Of a DNA stretch of 38,859 nt, positions 827 through 31,966 are shown piece after piece. The stretch is taken from assembly GCA_029883265.1 (NCBI GenBank), contig JAOUJM010000020.1, positions 1 through 38,859 on the forward strand. The letters are read 5' to 3'. Every line of letters starts with the position of its first letter. Within the stretch, counting starts at the first letter, position 1. Under the pieces are notes generated by a model that did no database searches, was not told the origin of the DNA, and saw only the letters and a list, made by a program, of their open reading frames with translations. The DNA comes from Gammaproteobacteria bacterium (GTDB lineage Bacteria; Pseudomonadota; Gammaproteobacteria; S012-40). The position numbers and the translations under genes were made by a program.

Positions 827-920
827 TTAGCTATTCATGTCTGATTGATAAAGGCAGTATTTGTGATGTCATTTATCGATTCAGATATTGCTGTTACAAA
901 CAAAAAGAGTATGTGTATTT

Positions 921-1292
921 ATGGCAAAGATTCTAGTCGTTGATGATGTGCCAGTGGTATGTGAGTTTATAAGTTTGGCGTTGACTGAAGCTGGTCACGG
1001 CGTCGATATGGCATCTGGTGGTCGTGAGGCCATGGAAAAAATTAAATCGAACCATTATGACCTGCTTATCACCGACTTACTAATGCCGGATATGGATGGT
1101 TTTGAGTTAGTGTCGGCTGCCAAAAAACAACTTAAGCAACTTAAAATCATTGCAATTTCAGCAGGAGGCGCCATTTCGTCAGATGTATATTTAGACATGG
1201 CCGATGATCGCTTACAACTGGATGGGCGTTTGCCCAAACCGATTGAGGTTGATGACTTGATTGAATTAACAGAACGGGTTTTGACAAAATAA
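921..1292 (+). CDS. Single-domain response regulator (CheY-like receiver)
   Basis: A stand-alone receiver domain of 123 residues with no output domain, so it probably acts by protein contact or as a phosphorelay shuttle. The usual residues are present: the acidic pair in VVDDVP near the N-terminus, the phospho-acceptor Asp52 in LLITDLLMPDMDG, a Ser in IIAISAGG, and the conserved Lys in LPKPIEV. The frame is open from 888, but the ATG at 921 starts directly at the first beta strand (MAKILVVDD), so I chose it; an AAGAG stands about 12 bases upstream. The region between beta4 and the Lys (about 25 residues with YLDMADDRLQLDG) diverges from CheY. The hybrid kinase downstream, separated by about 120 bases on the same strand, carries an Hpt domain and is the obvious partner candidate, but this is inference. 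Confidence 0.88.
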   Translation: MAKILVVDDVPVVCEFISLALTEAGHGVDMASGGREAMEKIKSNHYDLLITDLLMPDMDGFELVSAAKKQLKQLKIIAISAGGAISSDVYLDMADDRLQLDGRLPKPIEVDDLIELTERVLTK

Positions 1293-1414
1293 AAAATCCT
1301 AAACTCATCAAGTTTATTTTATTATCAAGTAAGTAGCGTTGATTTTTTATTTATTTTAATCTAATGCCAGCCGATACAATGCTAATGCAACAGAAGAAGC
1401 AAGAAATCACTCAT

Positions 1415-3592
1415 ATGACTGAAGAAGTTGTAGAACCCACTAGTTTCGAGGCGCTATCCAAAGAAATTGGTTTAGGCGAACGCATCGAACAGTTTTTTAA
1501 GCAATCCTTACCTGCAATTATCGGTGATGCTACCTCAGCTGTTGTGCTGTTCTTTTTACTATTTGGCACAGTAAGTTCAGTTGTGTTGGGTACCTGGTTT
1601 GCGGTTGCACAGTTGCTTAATGTCTTTCTATTTTCCACCTATATAATGTATCGAAAACTTCAGCCCACACCTCAACAAATATTCCAACATTGGCGTTACG
1701 CATTATATTTTCCAAGTATTGTTCATGGGCTAACCTGGGGAGCTTTTAGCATTATTGCCTATTATGCGAATCATGAATGGGCCTATGTTGTGTCCTTAGT
1801 CGTGGTGATGGGTTTAGCAGCGGGTAGTGTGCCTATAATGGGAACGGTATTCCCGCTGTTTGTATTACACAAAATTTTTCTCATTTTACCCTCAGGTATT
1901 GTAGTTTTTGTTGCAGGTGAAGCGGCAGAAAAATGGGGTTTGATGGTTTTTATCGCGGTGTTCTTTAATAGTATTGTCTTTAGTGGCCTGGTGTACTATC
2001 GCTCATTTCTTAAGACTATGCAGCTCAGGCATGAAAATGATGGAATTGTTTTCAATTTGAAAAAAGAAGTTGAAACGCGTAAAGAAATTGAGGCGCAATT
2101 AGTGGAAGCAACGACCCATGCAGAAGCAGCCAATATTGCCAAGTCGAGTTTTCTGGCAAACATGAGCCATGAAATACGAACACCTCTGACATCAATTATT
2201 GGTTTTTCAGAAGCCATTATGAAAGATACCAATAGTCAGCAAGAACGTGCCCGTTTAGCAAAAACAATTTTACGCAGCAGTCGCCATCTATTAGAAATTA
2301 TTAACGATATACTCGATTTGTCCAAAATTGAATCCAATAAGCTGGATTTTGAAAATATAGACACGCCTATATTCGAAATGATGGAAGATTTAAATTTTAT
2401 TACTGGTGAACATATTCGGGATAAAGGTGTTTCCTTTGAAATTCAGTACCAATATCCCGTGCCTTCAGTTATTCAATCCGACCCCGTTCGACTGAAACAG
2501 ATTCTGATTAATTTATGCAGTAATGCCGCAAAATTCACCCACTCCGGTAGGATACTCATCAGCGTACGCTGTGACGCAGAAAAAGAATTAATTTTCTTTC
2601 ATGTGAATGATACCGGAATTGGCTTGCCGGAAGATAAGTTGGAAACAATATTCGAAGCATTTTCACAAGCCGATTCATCGACTACACGCAAGTATGGGGG
2701 TACCGGCTTGGGCTTAAATTTATCTCGTCGTCTAGCGCATGCTTTGGGTGGTGACTTAACAGCGATGAGTACCGTCGGCATTGGTAGTACGTTCACTCTA
2801 AGTATTCGTACTGGTACCATAAGACCTGAAGTCATGATAGAAAATGACGAGTCAAGGCCGAAAGTGAAACCGGTCGCACAAACTCAGCTCTCTACATTGA
2901 AGGGGAAAATCTTAATCGCTGAGGACACGGACGTAATTCAAGAGTTAATTGCAACCTTATTGCAAAGGGCCGGTGTAGAATATGAATTTGCTGATAACGG
3001 AAAAATTGCCGTAGAAAAAACTGAGAAAACAAAATATGATTTAATTTTCATGGACATGCAAATGCCAGTGATGGATGGTATAGAGGCAACGAAAACAATC
3101 AGGGCGAATGGATATAAGGGCCCTATTATTGCGTTAACTGCTAATGCTTTTAAAGAAGATGAAGAAAAATGTAAGCAAGCGGGAACAACAGAATTTATTA
3201 CCAAGCCCATAGAAACCGACTTATTTTTCACTCGCCTGAAACACTACCTATTGCCTGATGCTGACGAGGATCAATTAGACGACGATGCCATATTTCCTAC
3301 ATTCAAGAAAGCCAGCAAAATCAATGAAAAATTAGCGAAAAAATTTGTTGTGGATTTCGAAAGTGTCATCAATGATACAGTTTCAGCATTTAAAAAAGAG
3401 GATTTGGATGCAGTATTATCCGAGCTTCATAAGATCAAAGGTTCATCAGCTACTTTTGGTTATCCACAATTGGGTGAGCTAGCAAAAGCGGCGGAGCAAC
3501 TTGGGAAAAAGAAAGATATTTCAGAACTCGCAGAAAAAGTCGAACAAATGGCACAAATGTTCAAGAAAATTCAACGTGGCATGGGTGCTTAA
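1415..3592 (+). CDS. Membrane hybrid histidine kinase (HisKA-HATPase-REC-Hpt)
   Basis: A multistep phosphorelay kinase of about 725 residues. The N-terminal 200 residues hold six or seven hydrophobic segments and no evident periplasmic sensor domain, suggesting sensing within the membrane. A short coiled-coil linker follows. The HisKA domain has the phospho-His in ANMSHEIRTPL (His252 from this start). The ATPase has its N box (INLCSNAAKFT) and G boxes (DTGIGLP, GGTGLGL). A receiver domain has Asp547 in LIFMDMQMPVMDG, and a C-terminal Hpt domain has His672 in LHKIKGSSATFG. An in-frame ATG at 1364 would add 17 residues. I prefer 1415 because MTEEVVEP is a natural N-terminus with an A/G-rich stretch before it, and the 1364 ATG has no Shine-Dalgarno sequence. 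The signal sensed is unknown. Confidence 0.93.
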   Translation: MTEEVVEPTSFEALSKEIGLGERIEQFFKQSLPAIIGDATSAVVLFFLLFGTVSSVVLGTWFAVAQLLNVFLFSTYIMYRKLQPTPQQIFQHWRYALYFPSIVHGLTWGAFSIIAYYANHEWAYVVSLVVVMGLAAGSVPIMGTVFPLFVLHKIFLILPSGIVVFVAGEAAEKWGLMVFIAVFFNSIVFSGLVYYRSFLKTMQLRHENDGIVFNLKKEVETRKEIEAQLVEATTHAEAANIAKSSFLANMSHEIRTPLTSIIGFSEAIMKDTNSQQERARLAKTILRSSRHLLEIINDILDLSKIESNKLDFENIDTPIFEMMEDLNFITGEHIRDKGVSFEIQYQYPVPSVIQSDPVRLKQILINLCSNAAKFTHSGRILISVRCDAEKELIFFHVNDTGIGLPEDKLETIFEAFSQADSSTTRKYGGTGLGLNLSRRLAHALGGDLTAMSTVGIGSTFTLSIRTGTIRPEVMIENDESRPKVKPVAQTQLSTLKGKILIAEDTDVIQELIATLLQRAGVEYEFADNGKIAVEKTEKTKYDLIFMDMQMPVMDGIEATKTIRANGYKGPIIALTANAFKEDEEKCKQAGTTEFITKPIETDLFFTRLKHYLLPDADEDQLDDDAIFPTFKKASKINEKLAKKFVVDFESVINDTVSAFKKEDLDAVLSELHKIKGSSATFGYPQLGELAKAAEQLGKKKDISELAEKVEQMAQMFKKIQRGMGA

Positions 3593-3637: not shown

Positions 3638-4357
3638 TTAATTCTCAATTATGACATCGGGATTTACTTCAGGTACGACTTTGTAAAAGCCAATTTTCTT
3701 CAATACCCAATAACGTTGATAGCGCCGAAAAAATTCTTCATTTTGTTCCATTTTGAACATGATATCTGGAACGCGGATGAGTTTAATGCCACTTTGCTCA
3801 ACTGCTCTTGCTACATGGTCGCGCATAATGGCCCAGGCTTGATCCTTATGAAACTGTTCTTTCGCCAGTTGGAATGCACCAGCAACTAAGTTGCGAATCA
3901 CACGTAAATGTAGACCTTGTTCCTTTAAAGCGCCAATTGTGAATTCATAGGCGATACTCAAACGTCCAAATTCGATAGCTTTTTTCTCATTAAAGCCTTC
4001 AAATATGAAATTATCCCAGCCGCCTTCAACATCAAGAATGCGTTTGACTTCCAGGTGCTCAGACGCGGGTCTGCTATCGTCACCCATCATGATGCGTATA
4101 CAGCCAAGCATTTGTTGAAGCCCGGTCAGTGGATTGGTGCCAAGTAGTGCAATGGTTCTGGCATATCCTTGCTGATGATTATCATTAATACACAGCTCAA
4201 TATATACATCCTCGAGGTCTAGCGTATTGTCAGTGAATCCACGATAGGTTTCAGCCACCATTAGATTCGCTTGATAAAGCAAAAATGGATCATTAGTGAC
4301 GTCTTTGAGGATAAAAGGGGACTCTTGTGAATGAAATTTTCGCCTAGGTTGTACCAC
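3638..4357 (-). CDS. GNAT-fold acyltransferase-like protein, resembles N-acyl amino acid synthase (FeeM type)
   Basis: A soluble protein of 239 residues, second gene of a minus-strand operon. Its features fit the GNAT-like fold shared by autoinducer synthases, PEP-CTERM-associated acyltransferases and FeeM-type N-acyl amino acid synthases: a strand at about 82-92 (QMLGCIRIMMGD) leading to a disordered-looking loop, then EFGRLSI at 129-135, the position of the E-x-x-R signature in that group, followed by a helical C-terminal half. If so, it would transfer an acyl chain from acyl-ACP or acyl-CoA to an amine. The start is a GTG 11 bases after the stop of the upstream E1-nitroreductase gene. An AAGG overlaps that stop codon, so the two are probably translationally coupled. 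The family call is by motif impression only; a generic GNAT acetyltransferase remains possible. Confidence 0.6.
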   Translation of the reverse strand: MVQPRRKFHSQESPFILKDVTNDPFLLYQANLMVAETYRGFTDNTLDLEDVYIELCINDNHQQGYARTIALLGTNPLTGLQQMLGCIRIMMGDDSRPASEHLEVKRILDVEGGWDNFIFEGFNEKKAIEFGRLSIAYEFTIGALKEQGLHLRVIRNLVAGAFQLAKEQFHKDQAWAIMRDHVARAVEQSGIKLIRVPDIMFKMEQNEEFFRRYQRYWVLKKIGFYKVVPEVNPDVIIEN

Positions 4358-4368
4358 GTTAAACTACC

Positions 4369-6654
4369 TTATGGTTTGACTGGGTTGCTGGTTTCAAGAA
4401 CCAATTCCAATGGTCGACGTTTGGCTAATGCAGATGCTGGTTTATCTTCATATCCAATTCCGAAAAGAAACATTCGGGTCTGTTTATCATTTGATGCAAA
4501 TATCTGGTTAAATTGCGTTTCAATGTCTATCATTGTGCGTTGTTCTTTAGCGCTAAAACTATGACTCTCTGCATCATTAGCCATATCAAACATATAAGTT
4601 AAAACCGCTCGTGGCTGCAAAGCAATTTTGAATGCTGTTGCTTGTAACCAGATACGTTGCATTGCACGACCTGCTCTTACAAAATCGAGTGCATGATTAC
4701 CTTCAGTATTTAACATGCAGATCGCTGGGTAGGTTTTTACAGCGACTTCAGTCATAGTTGCGATGGCTTTACCCGCTTTAATGGTTCGAAGAAATCCTGC
4801 AACGGACGGGCGTGCCAAAATCTTCAAGACCATTATCTGGCTGGCAGGCATTTCTAGCGTTGCTACATCGACACCGTCCTTGGTTGTATCTGCATGACGT
4901 TCATTCCAACGTAGTTCGCTCATCATCTCGCGGTGTAAGTCTGGGCAAAGAAATCGAATTTGATCACCAATGCCAATTAAGTGGGCCAGTTGTTCTCGTT
5001 GCTCCTGTTCAGTGGCAACCTGTAACTCACAGTCAAGATCCTTTGCAATTTTCTTCAAGGTTTTGATTTGTCCTTCACTAATAGCTTCGGGTTTTACCGG
5101 TTGACGATTAGTTTTGCGCTCATCAATGTGGTGCACTAAGGTATCAATCCCTTGCGTTTTTTTGTTTTCATCAATTTTTATTTTTGCAACAATGGTTGGG
5201 TCTTGCTTTATTGGAAACCAATTGATTTCCAGGCTGCAAGACTTTTCTGAAGCGGCAAGAATTATATTTTCTATAGCGGCGCCAATACCTAGGAAAGCTG
5301 CTCGCTGTTGAAAATCCAAAGTACTTTCTGCTCGCTCCATATCAAGTCGAACCCAGAGATGTTGCTCAAAATAGTGGAACCGCCATTGCTGCATATTGCC
5401 GGCGGTTGGCGCTTTGATGGCTTGTTCAACCAAATGACGAATAATAGCCGGCAACGACTCCAAATCTTGGCGATCAGCGTTATCGTTCTTTATATTTGAA
5501 AATGCTTTTTCCGGAATCATATCTATGTCATTTACTCTATAATCGCCTAAAATAATCTGTTCCAAATCAACATATCGTCTACCCGAAGGTAGTGGTTCAT
5601 TTAAGCCCAACTTCCTAACAGCTGTGCAAACGGATGCGCCTCCAAGCGTTACATCTGATGCTAGCTGTGGCCAACTCGATATGGTATTCGATAATTCCAT
5701 CATCGAGGCCGCGGCCCGGGTTGACATGGTTTCGCTGCCAAGTAAAGTCAAAACATAATTAACTTTTTCATTAACAGTCAGGTTCTTTGGAATTGTTTTT
5801 GAGCTAAGTCCAGGGACAAGCCCATGAAACAATTCCCGTTGCGGTTCCAAGTCAAACCGTTCTATATCCAACATACCCCGGTCGCTGGTTTCCATTAATA
5901 CTGGAATGCCTAATGACCGTGCTTTTTCTCGTAACAATATTTTCAAATAAATGTCATCACACTCATCGATAATGACATCGAGTTTTTCATCACTAAAAAA
6001 CTCTTCAATATTGTCTTCATTAATCCCTTCGTGAAATAAACTGAGTTCAGCATAGGGGTTAATTTCAAAAATTTGTCTTGCGGCTAAAACTGTTTTTGGT
6101 ACTCCAATATCGTGCACTTGAGCTCGTAGTCGATTCATATTGGAAAGATCCAAGGAATCTGGGTCTGCAAGTTTTAAGTGTCCACCAATGCCTTCCATTA
6201 ATAGCGTTAGTGTTACTGCATTACCGACCGAGAGTCCGACAATACCAATGGTTAACTGTTTTAGCTTATCCTGTTCCTCTTGTGTTAACTTGGGCCGATT
6301 ACGATCTAAACGTAATCGATTAAATTCTTCTGCGGGTAAGGTATGAACCAAGTTACCCGACCATGGGTAGTAAACCCAGGTGCCAAATTCGTCAACGGTT
6401 TGCATCCAGTCAAGTTGTGCAAGTAAATGTTGAATAGGGGTGCGGTCATAATCGGAACTGTTTTGCGGGTGCGTCGCGCAAACATAATCTCTGATTTGTG
6501 CATGAATAGTGTCTGTAATTCGCCAAATCTTGTCATGTTCGATGAGTTCCTTTATCCGTTTCCACGTTTTCGCTAAGCTTGCGTCCATCAACTCCGGTCG
6601 CCAGACATATGCTTGAGAAAAAGCAGACTCAAAATTTTTCTCAAATTGATGCAT
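4369..6654 (-). CDS. ThiF/E1-like adenylating enzyme fused to nitroreductase (Rv1355c/MoeY-like family)
   Basis: A 761-residue two-enzyme fusion. Residues 1-130 are an uncharacterised helical N-terminus. Residues about 133-345 form a ThiF/MoeB/UBA1-type Rossmann domain: nucleotide loop GIVGLSVG (137-144), acidic strand end LADPD (162-166), and NMNR (172-175) as in E1-like enzymes. No CxxC zinc pairs and no obvious catalytic Cys are present, so it may adenylate without forming a thioester. Residues about 395-760 form an FMN nitroreductase domain of the Acg kind, with APTAGNMQQWRF at 415-426, ERKTNRQP at 512-519 and a late GRAMQRIWLQATA helix. The same fusion is known as mycobacterial Rv1355c (MoeY), whose substrate is not established. 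First gene of a two-gene operon with the acyltransferase-like gene. A sigma-28-like element lies 56 bases upstream. Confidence 0.8.
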   Translation of the reverse strand: MHQFEKNFESAFSQAYVWRPELMDASLAKTWKRIKELIEHDKIWRITDTIHAQIRDYVCATHPQNSSDYDRTPIQHLLAQLDWMQTVDEFGTWVYYPWSGNLVHTLPAEEFNRLRLDRNRPKLTQEEQDKLKQLTIGIVGLSVGNAVTLTLLMEGIGGHLKLADPDSLDLSNMNRLRAQVHDIGVPKTVLAARQIFEINPYAELSLFHEGINEDNIEEFFSDEKLDVIIDECDDIYLKILLREKARSLGIPVLMETSDRGMLDIERFDLEPQRELFHGLVPGLSSKTIPKNLTVNEKVNYVLTLLGSETMSTRAAASMMELSNTISSWPQLASDVTLGGASVCTAVRKLGLNEPLPSGRRYVDLEQIILGDYRVNDIDMIPEKAFSNIKNDNADRQDLESLPAIIRHLVEQAIKAPTAGNMQQWRFHYFEQHLWVRLDMERAESTLDFQQRAAFLGIGAAIENIILAASEKSCSLEINWFPIKQDPTIVAKIKIDENKKTQGIDTLVHHIDERKTNRQPVKPEAISEGQIKTLKKIAKDLDCELQVATEQEQREQLAHLIGIGDQIRFLCPDLHREMMSELRWNERHADTTKDGVDVATLEMPASQIMVLKILARPSVAGFLRTIKAGKAIATMTEVAVKTYPAICMLNTEGNHALDFVRAGRAMQRIWLQATAFKIALQPRAVLTYMFDMANDAESHSFSAKEQRTMIDIETQFNQIFASNDKQTRMFLFGIGYEDKPASALAKRRPLELVLETSNPVKP

Positions 6655-7115
6655 AGCAAACTACAACCTTACATCTAATGCCTGATTTTCATCGAGTTTA
6701 TCTGCATTTATATCGGCTTTAGTACTTGAAAACTAAATCTAAGTTTTCCTATTAATTACTGTAATACAGCGATTCATCTAAAAAAAAGTAATAATGGAAT
6801 TGTGAAGAAACCAGCAACTATTGAAATTTGATCATTTAATGCAACGTCCTTAAATAGACTTTCATAGCTTATGTAAAGAATTGGACTAGTTATTGGAGTT
6901 ATTGATTTGCTCTAAACTGTTCACTTTTTTTGAAATTGTATTGGTGAAACCATTTGAAAAAAAATGAATAGGGATGAATGGAATACATTTTACCGGATTC
7001 AAATTATGCTATTGTGGCGAATGTCATCACAAAGACGAAACAAAAACATTTCTGCTTTTATAATTTCATAACTTAGTTAAAATCTTTGCAAAATAAAAAT
7101 AGTAGAAGAACAGAA
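6655..7115. other. Divergent intergenic region between the E1-nitroreductase operon and the lamin-tail gene
   Basis: About 460 AT-rich bases between divergently transcribed genes. I see no credible coding frame. The left side contains the sigma-28-like element reported separately for the minus-strand operon. The right side should contain the promoter of the lamin-tail/barrel operon, but I could not pick a convincing -35/-10 pair. No repeat or RNA structure stood out. Confidence 0.6.
6710..6737 (-). promoter_or_regulatory. Candidate sigma-28 (FliA) promoter of the E1-nitroreductase operon
   Basis: Read on the minus strand: TTTAGTTT, 12 bases, GCCGATAT. The -10 part matches 7 of 8 bases of the FliA consensus GCCGATAA, including the diagnostic GCCGATA core; the -35 part matches 6 of 8 of TAAAGTTT. 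The spacer is one base over the usual 11. It ends 56 bases upstream of the ATG, a plausible distance. A housekeeping -10 (TATAAA) overlaps it, so sigma-70 use cannot be excluded. Confidence 0.42.
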
Positions 7116-8633
7116 ATGAAAAATCGAATAACTATATTTTTTTCAATTATTCAAATGGTCTGGATTCTCACTGCCTGTGATTTTGACTATCCTGATGTGT
7201 CGGAGGCCTGCAATATTCAGCCGGGCGAGCTAATCATCACTGAAATACTTAGTAGTAAAACAGTCGGCGCTGAATGGCTAGAATTACAAAACATTAGTAG
7301 AAAAAATCTTATCCTAAATAGGCTTTATATTACAATTCAAGGCGCTGGGTCGCCAAAGTCTGAAACTCTATTTACAGACAAACAACTAGGTGCTAACGAG
7401 TATGTTGTAGTTTCCGACAGGCCTGGTGGATTCTCAGATATTTCGTTGGATAGTTTTAATCTGGCCAGTGATAGTGGGCGGGTACAAATTGAATGTTTGG
7501 GGAAAATTATTGATACAGTTGAATATGGTACTGAAAAAAACCCTATTGAACCAGAAATCGATATTGCCATTAAGGCGGAATTGCTTTTTGATGGGCAGAA
7601 TAAATTAGTTTCTCGCCGGTGGTGCCATGCGAGCGAGGCCACTGAAAATGGACAGTTGGGATCGCCGGGTAAAAACAATTCTTTGTGCGGATTAATGTTG
7701 TGTCTAGATGAAGGGCAAGCTCGTAAAATTCGTCATGCAAAACAAGGCGACTTGTTTATATCTGAAATATTCAACAATCCACAAGGTTCTGATATTGATA
7801 AAGAGTGGTTGGAATTAAAAATAGTAAACGGAGGAATTGATTTAAATGGAATTGAAATTCAAATCAATTCAAAACAATGGAAAATACTACAACAAGAATG
7901 CATAACGACTGAAGCGAATAGCTTTGTTAGTATCAATGTTTACTCTAGCGTAGATCAATTTAAGCAAAATGAAAAGCAGCTGAAAATGAAAGGTGATGGC
8001 ATTCCCGGCAGTGTGGAAAGCATAAAGCTTGCTGTACAAGATCAAGTGATTGAATCGATAGACGTAACACTTAACGCTAAAGAAGGTGCCAGTTTGAGTC
8101 GTGATTGGAATGGCTCACAACAATGGTGTCATTCGCGTAGTGTTTTTATTGAGGGCGACGCTTATACTGAGCTATCAACGAAAGGATCAGAAAATGACCC
8201 TTGTGGGGCTGCATGTCTAAGCAATGGACGCTGGCGACTAATTGAAGTAGCGCAGCCACATATGCTACGTTTTGATAGCGCATTACCAAATCCAGCAGGG
8301 GCCGACAAAAACCAGGAGTGGGTTTTAGTGCAAAACATTTCCAATATCGAATTCGACTTGAATGACAGTCTATTAAAAAATACTAGCGATAGCTCAGGAA
8401 AGTCGAAAGAATTGAGCATAACTCAAGATGCGTGCTTGAGTCTGAGCCCTGGTGACTTTCTATTGATTGCTGGAAACGATGTACAACCCTCTATATCCGA
8501 TAAGACTTATAACTCGTCAAAGTTGTCACTTTATAATGATGCAAGTCAATTGCAGTTATTTGCAAATGAGCAGCTTCTTGCTGAAACTCAAATGGATGCT
8601 GCAAGTGAGGACACGCCGGTGGTGTTTAAATAG
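7116..8633 (+). CDS. Lipoprotein with three lamin-tail (LTD) modules
   Basis: A 505-residue predicted lipoprotein. The signal peptide ends in the lipobox LTAC with Cys21; Asp at +2 would favour inner-membrane retention under E. coli Lol rules, though rules differ between taxa. Three lamin-tail-like beta modules start near residues 37 (GELIITEIL), 211 (GDLFISEIFNNPQG) and 383 (MLRFDSALPNPAG), each with an acidic-Trp strand (EWLELQN, EWLELK, EWVLVQN). The first two end in a WCH...GS...CG cysteine signature, common in LTD lipoproteins of environmental bacteria; the third lacks this ending. LTD modules in bacteria are surface or nuclease-associated, with no settled function. An upstream frame extension to a TTG at 7086 exists, but ATG 7116 follows a GAAGAA Shine-Dalgarno and starts the signal peptide. 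Its stop overlaps the next start, indicating coupling. Confidence 0.82.
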   Translation: MKNRITIFFSIIQMVWILTACDFDYPDVSEACNIQPGELIITEILSSKTVGAEWLELQNISRKNLILNRLYITIQGAGSPKSETLFTDKQLGANEYVVVSDRPGGFSDISLDSFNLASDSGRVQIECLGKIIDTVEYGTEKNPIEPEIDIAIKAELLFDGQNKLVSRRWCHASEATENGQLGSPGKNNSLCGLMLCLDEGQARKIRHAKQGDLFISEIFNNPQGSDIDKEWLELKIVNGGIDLNGIEIQINSKQWKILQQECITTEANSFVSINVYSSVDQFKQNEKQLKMKGDGIPGSVESIKLAVQDQVIESIDVTLNAKEGASLSRDWNGSQQWCHSRSVFIEGDAYTELSTKGSENDPCGAACLSNGRWRLIEVAQPHMLRFDSALPNPAGADKNQEWVLVQNISNIEFDLNDSLLKNTSDSSGKSKELSITQDACLSLSPGDFLLIAGNDVQPSISDKTYNSSKLSLYNDASQLQLFANEQLLAETQMDAASEDTPVVFK

Positions 8634-10675
8634 TGCATTCTCTTGGTTCCATTATTCATGTAACTGTTATTGTTGTACTCGTTTCGTCTGCTACTGCTAA
8701 CGAAGTGCTTGATATCAATCCTCTGCGTCTAGAAAGCGCCAATGTAGATGATGTTGAGCAATCTATGACAGAACAAATGCTGCTCGCCCCGTTGAATATC
8801 AATACGGTTCAATACAATGAATTGCTAGTTATTCCATATATGCAAGCGAACGTGGCAAGGGCGATTGTTCAGGAGCGGGAACACAATGGCTCGTACCATT
8901 CCTTTAGTGATTTAGAACTTCGTCTTAAACGCGTGCAGTTCAATTGGCAAGAAATCAAGGTTTACATAAGTTTTTCAGAATCAGCTAGCAATTTACAAAC
9001 TCAGCTTGAGTTTAGAAGTCTGTTTTCACAAGCAGAGCAATTTCACGAAAAGAGTATTAAGCGCAATCAATATTTTACGTTTGCAATAAACAAAGGCACT
9101 GACTACAAACTCAACGCATCAATACACCCCTATACCTATCATTTGGTGAGCTACGATAGGGGAAGTGGCGCATTACTTATGTCAACAAGTGAACCCACAA
9201 TGCTTTTAAGTACATATAGTGTTGAGAGGGACTGGTCCTTTGGTAAAATTATTCTTGGTGATTTTAAGCTAGATTTGGGACAAGGCTTATTAGTTAAGAA
9301 TACCTATACAAGAGCACCTCAACAGCTTTCAAGCCAGCGCCGACTCAGTGCAAATATTGCGGATGCTAAACTAAAAAAAAAGGAAGGGTTTAGTGGTGTT
9401 GCAACAGAGTATCGATTTAATAAAGCTAATACACACAAACTAATAATGTTCTATTCAAGACAGAATCAGTCCTTGTACCAGTACTATTTTCAATACCAAG
9501 CTGATCCATGGTATGGGGATTGTAGTCGATCTGAGATTCGTTGTGATGGCTTTGAATGGCAGGATAATGCTTGGTGGGGCGGTCATGTTATCGATGAAAA
9601 AAGTAGACAAGTAGTATCGTATCAAACCTTAGACAATATTTATCGTGAAAATGTGTCAGGCTTTTCTTATAGTATGTCAAGCAAGACACAACACTATCAA
9701 CTCAACTTTTTGCAGTCGACTTATCAATTTTTGCTTGAAGATATTGAATTGCGTTTTGCACCTCACTCGGGGAAATATGGTCTAAATCAGCAGCATGCAC
9801 TATCATTCTACATTTCATTTAAACAAGCGAATTATCAATTCAATTCGGAGTGGGCGCAACTACAAAATGATGCGCTTGCTAGTGTTAATCAGCTTCATTG
9901 GCTGTGGTGGCCAAGCGCACAGTTTGAATTAACCCAATGGTATTATTCACCCGACTATACTCACAATCTGGCTAAAGCCATTTCCAGTAGCCACACCATA
10001 GAGTCATATTCAGAACGAAACGAACTTGGGTTGCAACTGACAGCGAGATATAATGGATGGAGCAAAACTCATCCATCACTACGCATCAAAATATGGGATT
10101 ATCCCTATAAACAACATGATAGTGCTAAACAGCATTCATGGCGCACTCGACAAATGAAACGCCCGAATTCTATTGTCAGTCACAATTGGCGCTATCAAAT
10201 CAATTCGTGGGCCGAGCTACGAATGTCACAGTTTTTTTCACTTCAATATTTTCCAAGTATTGAGCTGGGAAAAGAAATTATTGATGATCGAGTTCAACAA
10301 TTTTCTCAGGCATCTGGTTTGGGTTGGCAGGTAAAACATTGGAGTTTTTATCATGCTTATCAGTATCAATATTATGTGTATGGTAGCCATAAGCGTCTTC
10401 AAGTAATTAAACAAAGTTTGAAATCCTATATTGATTGGAAGCCCACAAGGAGATTTTCAATGCTTATGCGCTTATCTATAAAAAAACAGGATTCGCTATA
10501 TAAACAGAGAGTGTTGACAAAAGATTTACCTGAAAGCAGCATAATGATAAGCGCAAGATTTCAAAAGCGAAAGACAGTTTTTTTTGAAATCTTGGCCCGC
10601 TATAATGACCGCTATGAATTTCAACCACATAAGAAATTAAAAATATTAAGTGTACGAGCTCAGTATATTTTTTAG
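8633..10675 (+). CDS. ComEA-like helix-hairpin-helix domain fused to an outer-membrane beta-barrel
   Basis: A 680-residue exported protein starting with GTG within the TAGTG overlap with the lamin-tail gene. A signal peptide covers about residues 1-22. Residues 54-110 resemble a ComEA-type HhH unit (LNINTVQYNELLVIP, ARAIVQEREHNGSYHSFSDLE). However, the glycine of the first hairpin is replaced (IPYM where PGI is usual), so DNA binding is uncertain. The rest is rich in alternating aromatic/polar strands (Tyr, Trp, Gln), typical of an outer-membrane barrel, and the protein ends in Phe (RAQYIF), the usual C-terminal signal for barrel assembly. HhH-barrel proteins of this kind are familiar as uncharacterised proteins in Bacteroidota. 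It ends four bases inside the convergent gene. Function unknown; a surface nucleic-acid handling role with the LTD lipoprotein is only a hypothesis. Confidence 0.72.
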   Translation: MHSLGSIIHVTVIVVLVSSATANEVLDINPLRLESANVDDVEQSMTEQMLLAPLNINTVQYNELLVIPYMQANVARAIVQEREHNGSYHSFSDLELRLKRVQFNWQEIKVYISFSESASNLQTQLEFRSLFSQAEQFHEKSIKRNQYFTFAINKGTDYKLNASIHPYTYHLVSYDRGSGALLMSTSEPTMLLSTYSVERDWSFGKIILGDFKLDLGQGLLVKNTYTRAPQQLSSQRRLSANIADAKLKKKEGFSGVATEYRFNKANTHKLIMFYSRQNQSLYQYYFQYQADPWYGDCSRSEIRCDGFEWQDNAWWGGHVIDEKSRQVVSYQTLDNIYRENVSGFSYSMSSKTQHYQLNFLQSTYQFLLEDIELRFAPHSGKYGLNQQHALSFYISFKQANYQFNSEWAQLQNDALASVNQLHWLWWPSAQFELTQWYYSPDYTHNLAKAISSSHTIESYSERNELGLQLTARYNGWSKTHPSLRIKIWDYPYKQHDSAKQHSWRTRQMKRPNSIVSHNWRYQINSWAELRMSQFFSLQYFPSIELGKEIIDDRVQQFSQASGLGWQVKHWSFYHAYQYQYYVYGSHKRLQVIKQSLKSYIDWKPTRRFSMLMRLSIKKQDSLYKQRVLTKDLPESSIMISARFQKRKTVFFEILARYNDRYEFQPHKKLKILSVRAQYIF

Positions 10676-11984: not shown

Positions 11985-13097
11985 ATGCCATCCATTCCTA
12001 CCAAACAGGATATTAAAAATGCCTCAATAATGGTTGTTGATGACCAGGAAGCCAATATTAAGGTATTGGAGAAAACACTAAAAAATGATGGCTACACTAA
12101 CGTCACCTGCGTCAAAGATCCACGTGAGGCACTTCAACTGTACCAAGCCCAGACATACGATATTGTTTTGCTGGATTTGAATATGCCCTATTTAAGTGGT
12201 TATGATGTTTTAGATCAGTTGAAACAAATGACTAATGGCGATATCCCAATGATTATCGTTTTGACAGCACAAATTGATCGTGACTCAAGACTTAAGGCAT
12301 TAGAAAAAGGCGCTAGGGATTTTCTAACAAAACCATTTGACATCGTAGAGTTGTTAACAAGAATTTACAATATGTTGGAATCCCGTTTGTTGCAGCAACA
12401 AATTCAAAATCAAAATAAATTCCTAGAAGCCGCAGTTGCAGAACGTACCCGTGAATTGGAAGATACACGAAAAGAAATTATTCGTCGCCTGGGGCGTGCT
12501 GCCGAGTATCGTGATAATGAAACCGGTTTTCATATTGTGCGCATGAGTAAAATCGCAGGATTAATGGCTCATCGCATGGGGTTGTGTGAACATGACGTTA
12601 CCTTAATTGAAAACGCGAGCCCAATGCATGATATTGGGAAAATTGGAATTGCCGATAACATTTTGTTAAAGCCAGGTAAATTTACCAGTACTGAATGGGA
12701 ACAAATGAAAACTCATACTACGATTGGTGCAGAAATGTTGTCTGGACATGACTCGGATTTACTCAATGCTGCACGGATCATAGCACTCACGCACCACGAA
12801 AAATGGGATGGTAGTGGTTATCCCAATGCTTTAAAAGCTCAGGATATACCCTTATATGGACGAATTGTTGCCGTCGCCGATGTTTTTGATGCCTTAACTT
12901 CGGTTCGACCGTATAAACATGCTTGGAATTTTGAGGATGCTGTCAACTACATTAAAGATCAATCCGGTAGTCATTTTGATCCTAATTGTGCTGAAATATT
13001 TCTTTCAAGTTTAGAGGATGTACTTGCAATCAAACAAGCGTATCCAGAACCGGATAACAAAAACATTACTCATTTAAAACAAGCCAACAATGATTAA
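11985..13097 (+). CDS. Response regulator with HD-GYP domain (probable c-di-GMP phosphodiesterase)
   Basis: A 370-residue RpfG-like protein. The N-terminal receiver (about 10-130) has the acidic pair in VVDDQE, phospho-acceptor Asp64 in VLLDLNMPYLSG, and Lys in FLTKPFD. A coiled coil (about 135-165) joins it to an HD-GYP domain with HDIGKIG (His215-Asp216), the downstream His pair in ALTHHEKWDGSGYP, and the second metal/GYP block VADVFDALTSVRPYK. All ligands expected for an active enzyme that hydrolyses cyclic di-GMP appear to be present. It starts at ATG with AGGA about eight bases upstream and stands alone, about 140 bases before fliL. Its position next to the flagellar operon fits a role in the switch between motility and attachment, though that is inference. 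Confidence 0.93.
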   Translation: MPSIPTKQDIKNASIMVVDDQEANIKVLEKTLKNDGYTNVTCVKDPREALQLYQAQTYDIVLLDLNMPYLSGYDVLDQLKQMTNGDIPMIIVLTAQIDRDSRLKALEKGARDFLTKPFDIVELLTRIYNMLESRLLQQQIQNQNKFLEAAVAERTRELEDTRKEIIRRLGRAAEYRDNETGFHIVRMSKIAGLMAHRMGLCEHDVTLIENASPMHDIGKIGIADNILLKPGKFTSTEWEQMKTHTTIGAEMLSGHDSDLLNAARIIALTHHEKWDGSGYPNALKAQDIPLYGRIVAVADVFDALTSVRPYKHAWNFEDAVNYIKDQSGSHFDPNCAEIFLSSLEDVLAIKQAYPEPDNKNITHLKQANND

Positions 13098-13239: not shown

Positions 13240-13728
13240 ATGGCCGAAGATGCGGCAAGACAAGGTGGTGAGTCGTCAGCTAAACTCGTTCTGATCATGA
13301 TCATCGGTGCCGTGTTATTGGTGGCTGTCAGTATGGGCGGTGTTTTCTTCTTACTTAAATCGATGGGTATGTTAAGTCAAGGTGGTCATGCACCGGTTGC
13401 TGCAAACGCACCGGCCATCTATCACCCAATGGAGCCTGCGTTCATTGTTAATTTCAAGGAGCGTGGTCGAACCAAATATTTACAAGTGCAAGTTGAATTA
13501 ATGACGCGTGATTCTCAGGCTATTGATGATGTCATTGCGCACACCCCTTTGTTACGCAATAACCTTTTACTATTACTCGGCAGTCAAACCGCTGAAATTC
13601 TCCACAGTCCTGAAGGGCGCGAAGAGTTGCGAAAAAAAGCTTTAGAGGAAGTGCAACGTATTCTAATCGAAGAAACCGGTCGACAAGGTATCGAAGCGCT
13701 ATATTTTACTAGTTTCATAACGCAATAA
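13240..13728 (+). CDS. fliL: Flagellar basal body-associated protein FliL
   Basis: FliL surrounds the stator units and supports torque under load. The 162 residues show the family layout: a short cytoplasmic N-terminus, one transmembrane helix (VLIMIIGAVLLVAVSMGGVFFLL), a flexible linker, and a periplasmic domain with MEPAFIVNF, a middle segment LQVQVELMTRD, and the C-terminal VYFTSF-like end (EALYFTSFITQ). It is the first gene after the sigma-54 element, with GAGG ahead of its ATG, and fliM follows after nine bases. No fliK or fliJ precedes it, so the flagellar genes usually found upstream must lie elsewhere. Confidence 0.95.
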   Translation: MAEDAARQGGESSAKLVLIMIIGAVLLVAVSMGGVFFLLKSMGMLSQGGHAPVAANAPAIYHPMEPAFIVNFKERGRTKYLQVQVELMTRDSQAIDDVIAHTPLLRNNLLLLLGSQTAEILHSPEGREELRKKALEEVQRILIEETGRQGIEALYFTSFITQ

Positions 13729-13737
13729 AGAGTTCAT

Positions 13738-14736
13738 ATGAGTGGTACCGATATACTTTCACAAGATGAGATTGATGCCTTATTACATGGTGTCTCAAGT
13801 GGTGACGTCGATACCACCATCGGCGATGATGTAGACCAGCATTTAACGGCTTATGACTTTGCTAGTCAGGATCGTATTGTTCGTGGGCGCATGCCCACCT
13901 TGGAAATGATCAATGAACGCTTCGCTCGATTTTTTCGTATTTCACTTTTTTCTAAACTAAGGCGCGCCGCAGAGATTTCTGTTAATGGTGTGCAAATGAT
14001 GAAGTTTGCAGAATACGTGCATAGTTTGTTTGTGCCCACTAGTTTAAACATGGTGAAAATGAATCCACTGCGTGGTACGGGTTTGTTTGTTTTTGATCCC
14101 AAGTTGGTTTACATCCTAGTGGATAATTATTTTGGTGGCGAGGGCCGTTTTCACACCAAAATTGAAGGAAGAGAATTTACACCCACCGAGTTAAAAATTG
14201 TTGAGGGGGTTTTATCTCGAGCATTTGTCGATTTGCAAGAAGCATGGTCGCCGGTAGTGCAAGTTGATTTTGAATTTTTAAGTGCTGAAGTAAATCCACA
14301 TTTCGCCAATATTGTGAGTCCTAGCGAGGTTGTGGTGGTTAGCTCGTTCAATATAGAACTGGAGGGTGGCGGTGGTGAAATGCATATCACCTTTCCATAC
14401 CTTATGTTAGAACCTATTCGTGAGTTGCTCGATGCAGGTGTTTTAAGTGATCACGTGGAAATGGATGAGCGTTGGTCTCAATCGTTGAAAGAAGAAATTC
14501 TCGATGCCAATCTTGAACTTTCTGCCATTCTGGCTTCAGCAGATTTAACCCTGCGCGATGTTAAAAATTTAGAAATTGGTGATGTGATTTCAATCGATAT
14601 TGAAGATACCGCCGTAGCCAAAGCGGCTGGCGTTCCAGTATTTCGTTGTCAATATGGTTCTTTTAATGGCAATAAAGCCCTAAAAATTGTTGAACCAATT
14701 AACAATCCTAACGAAAGCCTGGAAAAACAAAAATAG
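13738..14736 (+). CDS. fliM: Flagellar motor switch protein FliM
   Basis: FliM is the middle part of the cytoplasmic C ring and receives phosphorylated CheY. The 332 residues include the N-terminal CheY-binding peptide (LSQDEIDALLHGV, residues 6-18), almost at the first residue as expected, a CheC-like middle domain with the conserved RGTGLFVFDPKLV, and a C-terminal SpoA domain (about 255-325). It lies between fliL and fliN in the standard order with short gaps. Nothing unusual is seen. Confidence 0.97.
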   Translation: MSGTDILSQDEIDALLHGVSSGDVDTTIGDDVDQHLTAYDFASQDRIVRGRMPTLEMINERFARFFRISLFSKLRRAAEISVNGVQMMKFAEYVHSLFVPTSLNMVKMNPLRGTGLFVFDPKLVYILVDNYFGGEGRFHTKIEGREFTPTELKIVEGVLSRAFVDLQEAWSPVVQVDFEFLSAEVNPHFANIVSPSEVVVVSSFNIELEGGGGEMHITFPYLMLEPIRELLDAGVLSDHVEMDERWSQSLKEEILDANLELSAILASADLTLRDVKNLEIGDVISIDIEDTAVAKAAGVPVFRCQYGSFNGNKALKIVEPINNPNESLEKQK

Positions 14737-14745
14737 GAGAGGCAA

Positions 14746-15156
14746 ATGGCAGAGCCGGATGATGATGATGTAAACGACGCCTGGGCCGATGCACTAGCCG
14801 AAGCAGGACAAGTCGATGTTGATGATGACATGGGTGACGATTTTGATTCGGCGCCATTAAATGAATTGACAGAAGAACCCAGTGGTGGGGGTGAAACTGT
14901 TGACTTGGAAATGATTCTTGATATCCCTGTTACCATCTCAATGGAGATCGGGCGCACATCTATTAGTATTCGTAATTTGTTAAAGTTGAACCAAGGTTCC
15001 GTGGTGGAATTGGATCGACTGGCGGGTGAACCATTGGATGTTTTAGTGAATGGAACTTTGATCGCACATGGAGAAGTGGTTGTCGTTAACGAGAAATTTG
15101 GTATTCGTTTAACTGATGTAATTACTGCAATGGAAAGGATTAAGAAACTAACATGA
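14746..15156 (+). CDS. fliN: Flagellar motor switch protein FliN
   Basis: FliN forms the base of the C ring and binds the export ATPase regulator FliH. This copy has 136 residues: a very acidic, Asp-rich N-terminal half (about 1-50), then the conserved SpoA domain from ILDIPVTISMEIGRT through LNQGSVVELDRLAGEPLDVLVNG to NEKFGIRLTDVI. The acidic extension is common in this family. GGAGAGG stands just before the ATG. The stop codon overlaps the fliO start (ATGA), so the two are translationally coupled. Confidence 0.97.
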   Translation: MAEPDDDDVNDAWADALAEAGQVDVDDDMGDDFDSAPLNELTEEPSGGGETVDLEMILDIPVTISMEIGRTSISIRNLLKLNQGSVVELDRLAGEPLDVLVNGTLIAHGEVVVVNEKFGIRLTDVITAMERIKKLT

Positions 15157-15599
15157 TGTGGCGAATGCTTATTATTTTCTGTTGCATATTATTGTCGGTT
15201 GAACTTGCTCTTGCCAACGAACTCGGATTTGCGCGCCCATCAAGCACTGCTACGTTCAAAGACAATGGATTTAGTGTATTCAAACTTGTATTTGCTTTGT
15301 TACTAGTAGTAGGAGCAATTTTTGCGACTGCATGGTTTTATAAACGTTTCGGCCAAGTTGCTAGTCTGCCCAACAATGCCATAAGAATTGTTGGTGGTGT
15401 GAGTCTTGGACAACGAGAACGAATTGTTGTTTTACAAGTAGGTGAGGAGCAATTATTGCTAGGTGTGACGCCGAGTCGCATCGATACTTTGCATAAACTC
15501 GAAAAACCGATCGAGATTAGTTCTCACACACCGACAAGTGATTTGTTTGCAGAAAAATTTCAGTCGGCCTTAAAGCAGTGGAAACTGCGGAAATCATGA
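15153..15599 (+). CDS. fliO: Flagellar export-gate assembly protein FliO
   Basis: FliO assists assembly of the FliP ring of the flagellar export gate. The family is poorly conserved, but 148 residues, position between fliN and fliP, an N-terminal signal-like segment (LIIFCCILLSVELALA), one transmembrane helix (VFKLVFALLLVVGAIFATAWFYKRF), and the motif VGGVSLGQRERIVVLQVGEEQLLLGVT all fit. The start overlaps the fliN stop and the end overlaps the fliP start, both by ATGA. Confidence 0.93.
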   Translation: MMWRMLIIFCCILLSVELALANELGFARPSSTATFKDNGFSVFKLVFALLLVVGAIFATAWFYKRFGQVASLPNNAIRIVGGVSLGQRERIVVLQVGEEQLLLGVTPSRIDTLHKLEKPIEISSHTPTSDLFAEKFQSALKQWKLRKS

Positions 15600-16345
15600 A
15601 AACCATTTTGCGTTTCATTCTATTCCTTGTGCTGATGCTGCTATCCACAACCAGTTTTTCAGCGGATCCGGGAATCCCTGCGGTGTCGGTTTCAACACAA
15701 GCCGATGGTGGCAAGTTGTATACCCTGAGCTTGCAAATTCTTGCACTAATGACCACCTTGACGTTATTGCCTGCGGGATTGCTAATGCTTACTGCTTTTA
15801 CACGAATCATTATTGTATTGGCCATATTGCGTCAAGCCATTGGACTTATGCAAGCGCCCTCGAATCAAATTTTAATTGGCCTAGCTTTGTTTCTAACTAT
15901 ATTCATTATGGCACCTATATTTGAACAAGTATTTAAGGAAGCGGTTGTGCCCTATATTGATGAGAAAATCGAAATAGGAAAAGCATTTGAAACTGCACAA
16001 GTACCAGTGCGGGAATTCATGATGGGACAAACACGGGAAAAAGATTTAACCATGTTCGCAGAAATTTCCGGTCAACAAGACATACCCGACGCTGCCGCCG
16101 TTCCCATGGCCTTGTTAATCCCTGCCTTTCTTACAAGTGAACTTAAAACCGCTTTTCAAATTGGATTTCTCATTTATATCCCTTTTTTAGTGATTGATCT
16201 TGTGGTGGCCAGTGTATTAATGGCCATGGGCATGATGATGTTGTCTCCAATGATGATCTCCTTGCCATTTAAAATCATGTTATTTGTTTTGGTGGATGGA
16301 TGGTCACTGATCATGGGAACACTCGCATCTAGCTTTTTCGTTTAG
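15596..16345 (+). CDS. fliP: Flagellar export-gate protein FliP
   Basis: FliP forms the pentameric core of the type III export gate with FliQ and FliR. I set the start at the ATG overlapping the fliO stop (249 residues); an upstream in-frame start at 15578 would place six residues before the cleavable signal peptide (LRFILFLVLMLLSTTSFSA) and is unlikely. Characteristic stretches are seen: TRIIIVLAILRQAIGLMQAPSNQILIG, the central domain with PVREFMMGQTREKDL, and IPFLVIDLVVASVLMAMGMMMLSP. Length and order are standard. Confidence 0.96.
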   Translation: MKTILRFILFLVLMLLSTTSFSADPGIPAVSVSTQADGGKLYTLSLQILALMTTLTLLPAGLLMLTAFTRIIIVLAILRQAIGLMQAPSNQILIGLALFLTIFIMAPIFEQVFKEAVVPYIDEKIEIGKAFETAQVPVREFMMGQTREKDLTMFAEISGQQDIPDAAAVPMALLIPAFLTSELKTAFQIGFLIYIPFLVIDLVVASVLMAMGMMMLSPMMISLPFKIMLFVLVDGWSLIMGTLASSFFV

Positions 16346-16353
16346 GAGGGCCT

Positions 16354-16623
16354 ATGACGCCAGAAATAGTTTTAGATGTGTTTCGCCATACTTTGGAGAT
16401 CTTAGTGGTGTTAGTGAGTTTGATTTTAATGCCGGCGCTGGTGGTGGGTTTGTTGGTTGCTATGTTCCAGGCGGCGACATCGATAAACGAAATGACGCTG
16501 AGTTTTATTCCTAAATTATTAGTTACCTTGGGAACATTAATGATGGCTGGGCCTTATATGATGAAAATCATGTTGAGCTATTTTGAACGAGTATTTCACG
16601 ATATTCCCTATCTCCTAGGTTAA
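16354..16623 (+). CDS. fliQ: Flagellar export-gate protein FliQ
   Basis: FliQ is an 89-residue, two-helix membrane protein that packs around the FliP/FliR gate. The first helix (TLEILVVLVSLILMPALVVGLLVAMFQAATSINE) runs into the conserved amphipathic loop MTLSFIPKLL and a second helix ending in FERVFHDIPYLLG. A GGAGGG precedes the ATG at good spacing. Only two bases separate its stop from the fliR start. Confidence 0.96.
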   Translation: MTPEIVLDVFRHTLEILVVLVSLILMPALVVGLLVAMFQAATSINEMTLSFIPKLLVTLGTLMMAGPYMMKIMLSYFERVFHDIPYLLG

Positions 16624-16625
16624 TC

Positions 16626-17402
16626 ATGATACTGACAGGTGCTGAAATTAGTGCAATTGTCGGCACGTATTTGTGGCCGTTTATTCGAATAACTGCCATG
16701 GTCGGGGCAATGCCTGTCTTTAGTTCGAATTTTATTCCTGTGCGCATTCGTTTAGTGATTGCCTTAGCCATGACAATAGTGGTGGTGCCAATTATTCCGC
16801 CAGCGCCTGCTGTGGATGCGATAAGTATTCCTGGTGCGTTGATAGTGTTTCAACAGATTGTGATTGGTATTGTGTCTGGTTTCATTTTTCATTTAGTGAT
16901 TAATGCTTTTATCATCGGTGGGCAAGTGATTGCGATGCAAATGGGTTTAGGTTTTGCCACCATGGTTGATCCGGTGAATGGAGCACAAGCGCCAGTACTT
17001 TCTATGTTCTTTTTGTTAATGGTGACCTTGTTTTTTATTCTATTGGATGGTCATCTCGCTCTGGTTGGCTTGATCGCAAAAAGTTTTCATAGCTTGCCCA
17101 TCAGCGTCGATGGATTAATACGTGATAACTATTGGCAGCTGGTGGCTTGGGCCAGTGAAATGTTTGCCGGGGCGGTGTTAGTGGCATTGCCTGCTGTGAC
17201 TTCATTGTTACTCGTCAATATGTCGCTTGGTGTCATGGGGCGTGCTGCCCCTCAATTAAATATTTTTGCTGTTGGTTTCTCAATAACAATTACTGCAGGG
17301 TTTTATGTTATTTTGGTTTCATTGCCCGTGAATTTATTACAATTTGAAAACTTGTCGGCAAGTGCTTTTCAAGTCGTCAAAGATATTTTACGAGTGAATT
17401 AA
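16626..17402 (+). CDS. fliR: Flagellar export-gate protein FliR
   Basis: FliR, 258 residues and strongly hydrophobic, completes the FliP5-FliQ4-FliR1 gate and contacts FlhB. Conserved features: the opening helix with YLWPFIRITAMVGAMPVFS, the RIRLVIALAMTIVV helix, IIGGQVIAMQMGLGFATMVDPVNGAQAPVLS, and the PQLNIFAVGFSITITAGF segment. It begins two bases after fliQ and ends two bases before flhB, so it sits inside the tightly packed operon. Confidence 0.96.
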   Translation: MILTGAEISAIVGTYLWPFIRITAMVGAMPVFSSNFIPVRIRLVIALAMTIVVVPIIPPAPAVDAISIPGALIVFQQIVIGIVSGFIFHLVINAFIIGGQVIAMQMGLGFATMVDPVNGAQAPVLSMFFLLMVTLFFILLDGHLALVGLIAKSFHSLPISVDGLIRDNYWQLVAWASEMFAGAVLVALPAVTSLLLVNMSLGVMGRAAPQLNIFAVGFSITITAGFYVILVSLPVNLLQFENLSASAFQVVKDILRVN

Positions 17403-17404
17403 CA

Positions 17405-18544
17405 ATGGCTGAAAATGAACAAGGTCAGGAAAAAACCGAAGACCCCACCGGAAAACGATTAGGTGATGCGCGCCAAAAAGGACAAGTTCCACGCTCACGT
17501 GAAATGAATACTTTTTTCATGATGCTGTGTTCGGCAATCACTTTGATGTTGCTCGGCGCACAAATTGTTGATGATATTACCCGTCTGTGGCGAGACTTGT
17601 TCACCATCAATCGCAAAGAAATTTTTGATGTGCAATTTATGATTCGATCAATACAGTATGGAGTTGTCGAAGGCCTTAGTTCCGTTAGTATGTTCGCCAT
17701 CATTTTAATCGCTGTTGCAATATTTTCCTCAATTAGTATTGGTGGCTGGAATTTTTCTTTAAAAGCGATGGAGCCAAAGGCGAGCAAAATGGGGCCTCTA
17801 AAAGGTCTGCAGCGCATCGTTGGTCCCAAAGGTTTTGTTGAATTATTGAAAGCGATTGCCAAGGTTTCGCTTATAGGCATAACAGCCGTCGTGATGCTGA
17901 ATTTTATAGCTGAAGACGTGGTAAATCTCGGTCGGCAAGCACTTGAACCCGCGTTAGCCAATATGGCGTGGTATGTCATTATATTTTTTGCCGTACTCAG
18001 CTTGAGTTTAATTCTTGTGGCAATGATAGACGTACCTTTCCAACAGTGGGACCACAAACGTCAATTACGCATGAGTAAGGATGAAATCAAGCAAGAAAAC
18101 AAGCAACAAGAAGGTAGTCCCGAAACCAAACAACGGCTGCGTAGTACGCAAAGAGAAATGGCTATGCGCCGTATGATGGAAGAGGTGCCGAAAGCCGATG
18201 TGGTGATCACCAATCCTACGCATTTTGCTGTCGCATTAAAATACGACACAGAAAAAAATGGAGCACCGATTGTAGTGGCAAAAGGTGCGGATATTGTTGC
18301 TGGGAAAATCAGGCAATTGGCGCTGGACCACAACATTCCGATTTTGTCTTCTCCTGTGCTTGCGCGTGCAATATTTTTCAGTACCGAATTAAATGATGAA
18401 ATTCCTTCAGCCTTGTATATGGCGGTGGCAAAAATACTGGCATATATATATCAATTGAAAGCTCGGCCTGGCACGAAATTTACAAAGCCTATCAATATGC
18501 CAGATGTGGACGTGCCGGATGACTACCGTTATGACAATGAGTAA
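17405..18544 (+). CDS. flhB: Flagellar export switch protein FlhB
   Basis: FlhB switches export from rod/hook to filament substrates. The 379 residues begin with the canonical N-terminus (EKTEDPTGKRLGDARQKGQVPRS), followed by four transmembrane helices and a soluble C-terminal domain. The autocleavage site NPTH lies at 270-273 (VITNPTHFAVALKY), as in the family. The tail (about 355-379) contains a Pro/Asp-rich end. It is followed after 17 bases by flhA. A near sigma-54 motif inside its 3' end is listed among the rejected items. Confidence 0.97.
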   Translation: MAENEQGQEKTEDPTGKRLGDARQKGQVPRSREMNTFFMMLCSAITLMLLGAQIVDDITRLWRDLFTINRKEIFDVQFMIRSIQYGVVEGLSSVSMFAIILIAVAIFSSISIGGWNFSLKAMEPKASKMGPLKGLQRIVGPKGFVELLKAIAKVSLIGITAVVMLNFIAEDVVNLGRQALEPALANMAWYVIIFFAVLSLSLILVAMIDVPFQQWDHKRQLRMSKDEIKQENKQQEGSPETKQRLRSTQREMAMRRMMEEVPKADVVITNPTHFAVALKYDTEKNGAPIVVAKGADIVAGKIRQLALDHNIPILSSPVLARAIFFSTELNDEIPSALYMAVAKILAYIYQLKARPGTKFTKPINMPDVDVPDDYRYDNE

Positions 18545-18561
18545 TACAAAAGGAAATTAGC

Positions 18562-20685: not shown

Positions 20686-20750
20686 TACGATTGCCAATGC
20701 AATCACTAACAATGACTGACTGAGTCACTCGCAGTACGAAGGAGTATTGA

Positions 20751-23852: not shown

Positions 23853-23891
23853 TGAAGTAGCGTTGTTTAATAGGAAAGGTTGGAGGTCACC

Positions 23892-24284: not shown

Positions 24285-24296
24285 GGGGGAGTTATC

Positions 24297-25034: not shown

Positions 25035-25044
25035 GGATGACGAA

Positions 25045-28451: not shown

Positions 28452-28454
28452 GTT

Positions 28455-31965: not shown

Positions 31966-31966
31966 A

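Follow-up and report, generated by a model that had tools for sequence, protein, structure and literature searches.

In the 38,859-nucleotide contig JAOUJM010000020.1 of a gammaproteobacterial assembly (GCA_029883265.1), hereafter the window, we found two adjacent genes that very probably form an operon for acyl-oxazolone biosynthesis comparable to TrzAS and OxzAB. The direct basis for this is the domain architecture of the larger protein, its membership in a family of fusion enzymes, its conserved catalytic residues, the kinship of the smaller protein and the recurrence of such pairs in other genomes. The reactions and products themselves have been demonstrated for homologs, and by analogy the window enzymes are predicted to have the same activity. 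The pair would be a fresh member of a recently characterized type of two-gene biosynthetic system, set apart by an unusual acyltransferase. Its components, followed by the domains of the larger protein, are:

4369-6654, minus strand: TrzS-like fusion enzyme, 761 residues, ATG start (open reading frame, NF005901 and Pfam)
4358-4368, minus strand: 11-base spacer between the two genes (sequence)
3638-4357, minus strand: predicted N-acyl amino acid synthase-like acyltransferase of the FeeM/autoinducer-synthase superfamily, 239 residues, GTG start (acyltransferase profile)
Fusion residues about 1-105: N-terminal region
Fusion residues about 115-300: ThiF/E1-like adenylating cyclase domain, followed by a linker
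Fusion residues about 400-740: flavin mononucleotide (FMN)-dependent oxidase domain of the nitroreductase/Acg superfamily

The open reading frames, their strands and the 11-base gap are exactly those reported in a preliminary description of this DNA. The sequence TAAGG overlaps the stop of the fusion gene upstream of the acyltransferase GTG, and given that it contains a Shine-Dalgarno-like AAGG, one mRNA probably serves the translation of both genes. The GC content of the gene pair is that of the window, and the contig is coherent and chromosomal, carrying rapA, the flagellar genes fliL, fliM, fliN, fliP, fliR and flhA, and cheA. The host is called gammaproteobacterial-type below on account of these genes and of the composition of its class; a 16S gene was not detected in the assembly.

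The fusion enzyme and its predicted chemistry

The 761-residue protein matches the NCBIfam model NF005901, which represents the Rv1355c family, over its full length (residues 14-755); its score of 709.5 bits exceeds the cut-off of 476 and is far above chance level. Pfam recovers both ThiF (residues 120-297, 9e-23) and Nitroreductase (8e-10) in the single chain, as the preliminary description had proposed, and PDB matches include Acg (2ymv) as well as ThiF/UBA5 chains. Of the positions that do not vary across an alignment of 79 sequences, the window protein retains almost all, including D233 and M254, each of which is conserved in 79/79. Mapped via two relatives in which the same residue is numbered 217 (L093 and L100), the aspartate required for cyclization in TrzS of Mycobacterium smegmatis, D217, corresponds to this D233. 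The FMN-site residues R540 and Q651 would correspond to R567 (71/79) and Q680 (Q in 42, H in 34), assignments that we count as inferred because the alignment has a one-residue offset. The ThiF half possesses cysteines at positions 59, 232 and 343, but the only one conserved in the family is C232 (78/79), which lies beside the adenylation aspartate, and there are no zinc-type cysteine pairs in this half. The absence of zinc cysteines had been noted from the outset, and the proposal drawn from it, namely that the E1-like part solely adenylates a carboxylate, agrees with this arrangement of residues. In a phylogenetic tree the window protein forms a long branch of uncertain placement. Within its class, a full TrzS above the NF005901 cut-off was detected in one other genome among 369 (L002), where it has a TrzA-type partner.

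The preliminary description had held that the Rv1355c family has no established substrate, a statement that is now out of date: Rv1356c-Rv1355c of M. tuberculosis has been identified as trzAS, which makes N-acyl tryptazolones, with Rv1355c being TrzS (PMC12856293, December 2025). TrzA N-acylates L-tryptophan with short acyl-coenzyme A (acyl-CoA) thioesters as donors, and TrzS catalyzes first an ATP-dependent cyclization and then an FMN/O2-dependent desaturation that yields the N-acyl tryptazolone; homologs of trzAS are present in M. smegmatis and Rhodococcus jostii (PMC12856293). Related systems are TyzACB of M. tuberculosis, which makes tyrazolones, and OxzAB of Pseudoalteromonas rubra, an oxazolone system yielding tyrazolones and phenazolones (PMC10404671). 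The suggestion of an undescribed lipid product is therefore not supported, given that the homologous pair Rv1356c-Rv1355c yields N-acyl tryptazolones and that OxzAB and TyzACB yield tyrazolones. In contrast, the succession of steps deduced in the same description, acylation followed by adenylation of a carboxylate and oxidation by a flavin enzyme, is the very order shown experimentally for TrzAS (PMC12856293).

By analogy with these systems, the 239-residue enzyme would transfer an acyl group from acyl-CoA (or from an acyl-acyl carrier protein) to the amino group of an amino acid, which is most likely aromatic. The ThiF domain of the 761-residue enzyme would then adenylate the carboxylate of the N-acyl amino acid with ATP, whereupon ring closure by the amide oxygen would release AMP and give the 5(4H)-oxazolone, and the FMN domain would use O2 to desaturate the side-chain bond. 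Since oxazolones readily hydrolyze and alcoholize, one might alternatively suppose that the lasting product is an open-chain N-acyl dehydroamino acid of the thalassotalic or kyonggic acid type, with the oxazolone being a transient activated intermediate that is hydrolyzed or acylates something else. We consider this unlikely, as the TrzS and TyzB/C homologs accumulate oxazolones under mild extraction, and the failure to find oxazolones elsewhere may be an artefact of extraction.

Other assignments for the fusion enzyme were rejected. A sulfur-carrier E1 of the MoeB/ThiF kind is not supported by the scores (38-52 bits versus 266-377 for MoeB and 54-73 versus 152-275 for ThiF), nor are there cysteine pairs. 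A role in molybdopterin synthesis, which the family name MoeY would imply, was dismissed given that the curated MoeB and ThiF cut-offs are not reached. Ubiquitin-like conjugation was likewise discarded, the PADLOC matches to E1-E2 and E1 models being weak and confined to the region of the nucleotide loop.

The acyltransferase and the recurrence of the pairing

The small protein has no significant match of its own in Pfam, NCBIfam, PADLOC or the PDB. However, a profile of 19 acyltransferases that resemble N-acyl amino acid synthases, grown from proteins of the window's class and free of any copy of the window gene, finds it with 24.8 bits (E = 3e-6 in 3,922 open reading frames), whereas the best of 2,000 shuffled sequences reaches 7.3 bits. 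The alignment spans residues 81-197 and places GCIR and EFGRL in register with the motifs of the family; the E-F-G-R-L signature highlighted in the preliminary description is indeed present, beginning at residue 129, and its assignment of the protein to the N-acyl amino acid synthase-like enzymes is borne out by the profile. A protein that obtains 136 bits with the curated FeeM model (L129) gets 11.3 bits with the same profile, less than the small protein does. Later ranks of this search contain FeeM-family search matches, followed by acyltransferase-ThiF fusions and TrzA-family genes. The profile of these acyltransferases in turn matches acyl-homoserine lactone (AHL) synthases in the PDB, and it aligns with the TrzA-family profile in the same core (hhalign 92%). 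By these comparisons the small protein is a predicted acyltransferase of the right superfamily, belonging to a branch other than that of the usual TrzS partner. It shares the superfamily and an E-x-x-R-L-type motif with FeeM and the AHL synthases LuxI, BjaI and TofI, but in contrast to these it is too divergent for detection by Pfam and is known from its sequence alone.

To assess the recurrence of the pairing we scanned one genome per species and obtained 80 TrzS-like loci, most of them in Bacteroidota, Actinomycetota and Myxococcota. A TrzA-family gene adjoins TrzS or is fused to it in 62/80 of these loci, across the three main phyla, so that the pair does recur in unrelated genomes as had been anticipated. 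This TrzA family was defined from two sets of neighbors, those of Bacteroidota and those of mycobacteria; the profiles grown from each converged on the same family. The Bacteroidota partner has no Pfam match, but a structural model with a mean predicted local distance difference test score (pLDDT) of 91.6 shows the three-layer alpha/beta/alpha acyltransferase fold, with AHL synthases and FeeM as the top matches in the PDB. The preliminary description had named two outcomes that would speak against it, a pairing confined to one lineage and a small protein with a fold unrelated to acyltransferases; the first did not occur, and nothing found here points to the second.

Several observations nevertheless weigh against reading the window pair as an oxazolone operon. 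Searches of about 1,100 genomes (the majority from its class and phylum), of plasmids and of viral contigs with BLAST, tblastn and seeds recovered no close homolog of the small protein; the phylum sample returned three matches below 0.01 over short stretches, which we take as chance. As a result, the case for its kinship consists of one profile and the placement of motifs. It scores -1.3 bits with the profile of the TrzA branch, below shuffled sequences (top 5.8), and as it lies outside that branch the substrate is not transferable from M. tuberculosis. Its single-sequence AlphaFold model has a pLDDT of 35 and is uninformative on the fold. Lastly, no acyltransferase gene is seen beside the closest TrzS relative by BLAST (L032, 41% identity).

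Since the small protein lies outside the TrzA branch, it could be an accidental neighbor that is functionally unrelated to the fusion enzyme, for instance one acting in the PEP-CTERM/exosortase context of TIGR03694, the profile family nearest to it, and members of the profile family that finds it are indeed called TIGR03694, exosortase-associated acyltransferase. Yet the two genes lie on the same strand with a spacing of 11 bases, this type of pair recurs across phyla and the TIGR03694-like genes themselves adjoin ThiF/oxidase genes, which together render a chance association very improbable. Within the window's class, genes of the branch that recovers the small protein adjoin ThiF/oxidase genes at ten loci.

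In these loci (L005, L008, L009, L010, L012, L013, L016, L021, L027 and L028) genes of the TIGR03694 type are neighbors of ThiF/oxidase fusions or of separate ThiF and oxidase genes. This context suggests that exosortase-associated acyltransferases may make N-acyl amino acids or oxazolones.

In a comparison with the known systems, the proposed oxazolone operon resembles TrzA-TrzS of M. tuberculosis and its homologs in M. smegmatis and R. jostii in terms of the fusion family, the architecture and the tested catalytic residues (two of them by the inferred mapping), and in having an acyltransferase gene that adjoins the fusion gene on the same strand. It differs in the reversed gene order, with the fusion first, in the branch of the acyltransferase, in the lack of a GGDEF-EAL gene in the operon and in its gammaproteobacterial-type host. 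With OxzA-OxzB of P. rubra it shares the two-gene organization, the ThiF-oxidase fusion and a proteobacterial host; moreover, the acyltransferases beside OxzB-like fusions in the window's class belong to the branch whose profile recovers the small protein (OxzA itself lay outside the comparison). However, OxzB belongs to a cyclase subcluster other than that of TrzS (PMC12856293), and the OxzB-like fusions of the class, unlike the window enzyme, match the Rv1355c model weakly, far under its cut-off. TyzA-TyzC-TyzB of M. tuberculosis, which makes a C12 tyrazolone, performs the same three reactions as are proposed for the window pair, but there the cyclase and the oxidase are separate proteins and the order of steps is not obligate, whereas the window enzyme is fused. 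The window suggests that TrzS may also pair with an acyltransferase of another branch, which may broaden the range of products.

Additional architectures were encountered among the TrzS-like loci. In three Acidimicrobiales (L074:4619-7516, L086:5125-8022 and L091:3701-6550) proteins of 949-965 residues combine an N-terminal TrzA-family acyltransferase with TrzS, which may represent the whole oxazolone pathway in one protein; in L074 and L091 the next gene encodes a GAF-GGDEF-EAL protein. Open reading frames of 630-660 residues in Nocardia (L108-L110) contain the TrzS-type ThiF half without the oxidase half and begin with about 260 residues whose weak resemblance to the acyltransferase profile (11-14 bits) makes them possible fusions of an acyltransferase with a cyclase. 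In Streptomyces sp. ISL-43 (L034:5980-9306) TrzS carries about 350 additional C-terminal residues.

Sensor genes beside TrzS-type operons

The authors who described the oxazolones regard their physiological role as a major open question, and the published hint from gene neighborhoods is a pair of cyclic di-GMP (c-di-GMP) genes beside trzAS in M. tuberculosis (PMC12856293); the term histidine kinase is absent from the Journal of Biological Chemistry papers on these oxazolone systems. In the Bacteroidota operons TrzS is followed, in the same direction, by TrzA, a 7TMR-DISM histidine kinase and a second kinase, and a divergent response regulator often precedes TrzS. In Actinomycetota a GAF-GGDEF-EAL gene comes after TrzS, with a spacing of about 5 bases in mycobacteria. 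Two deltaproteobacterial or myxococcal bins have a hybrid kinase gene immediately before TrzS, and one bin labeled Patescibacteria has a seven-transmembrane (7TM) kinase gene 17 bases after it. At positions +1, +2 and +3 after TrzS, the gene is of the histidine kinase or c-di-GMP type in 24, 49 and 43% of cases, against 0-3% elsewhere; the loci share ancestry within each phylum, and the comparison is with their own distal positions. When the loci are clustered at 60% identity, a co-directional kinase or c-di-GMP gene lies within 1.1 kb in 25/36 clusters, representing at least four architectures. Such unrelated receptor types among the loci are the pattern expected if a signal had been paired with receptors on separate occasions.

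Two genes of the window are candidates for an equivalent role:

1364-3592, plus strand: membrane hybrid histidine kinase (HisKA, HATPase, REC and Hpt domains; Pfam), candidate receptor or partner
888-1292, plus strand: single-domain response regulator upstream of the kinase (Pfam Response_reg, 6.8e-20), candidate partner of the kinase

These observations raise the possibility, compatible with the assignment of the pair as an oxazolone operon, that the product serves as a signal, either between cells or internally, and is perceived by an adjacent sensor, namely the hybrid kinase with its response regulator in the window and a 7TMR-DISM kinase or GGDEF-EAL protein in the relatives. The concentration of sensor genes at +1 to +3, their co-directionality in 25 of the clusters and the membership of the acyltransferase in the superfamily of the autoinducer synthases all favor such a role, which we regard as having almost an even chance of being correct. 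On the other hand, the window kinase is encoded on the opposite strand, convergent to the pair and ending 45 bases from the acyltransferase gene, which makes the link weak in the window. Its matches in relatives are about 30-48% identical and there are many paralogs in the same and related genomes; as kinases of this type are so rich in paralogs their adjacency is weak evidence, and by our own estimate chance adjacency amounts to a few per cent. The arrangement typical of a quorum-sensing module, a synthase co-transcribed with its receptor, is absent from the window, whereas in relatives the kinase gene is co-directional. Furthermore, the TrzS operons of Nannocystis, Polyangium and several Nocardia have no sensor neighbor, and in the closest relatives by similarity (L032, Nannocystis) no sensor adjoins the operon.

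What is new here is the presence of sensor genes with unrelated receptor architectures next to TrzS operons in several lineages, which supports a hypothetical signaling role. More tentatively still, acyl oxazolones might be a cross-phylum family of bacterial signals, for which TrzS-type operons carry dedicated but unrelated receptors (7TMR-DISM and other 7TM kinases, hybrid kinases and GAF-GGDEF-EAL proteins), with the window containing a gammaproteobacterial-type version that has its own acyltransferase and a membrane hybrid kinase. A receptor hypothesis for the oxazolones hence becomes testable in harmless organisms, for example in Algoriphagus.

Other genes of the window

Upstream of the fusion gene the window encodes a protein with a lamin-tail domain (7086-8633), directly followed by a 680-residue protein with a helix-hairpin-helix motif (8633-10675). 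A response regulator with an HD-GYP domain (11985-13097) comes before the flagellar and chemotaxis operon, which spans 13240-32380 and includes the fli, flhA and cheA genes listed above as identified by Pfam.
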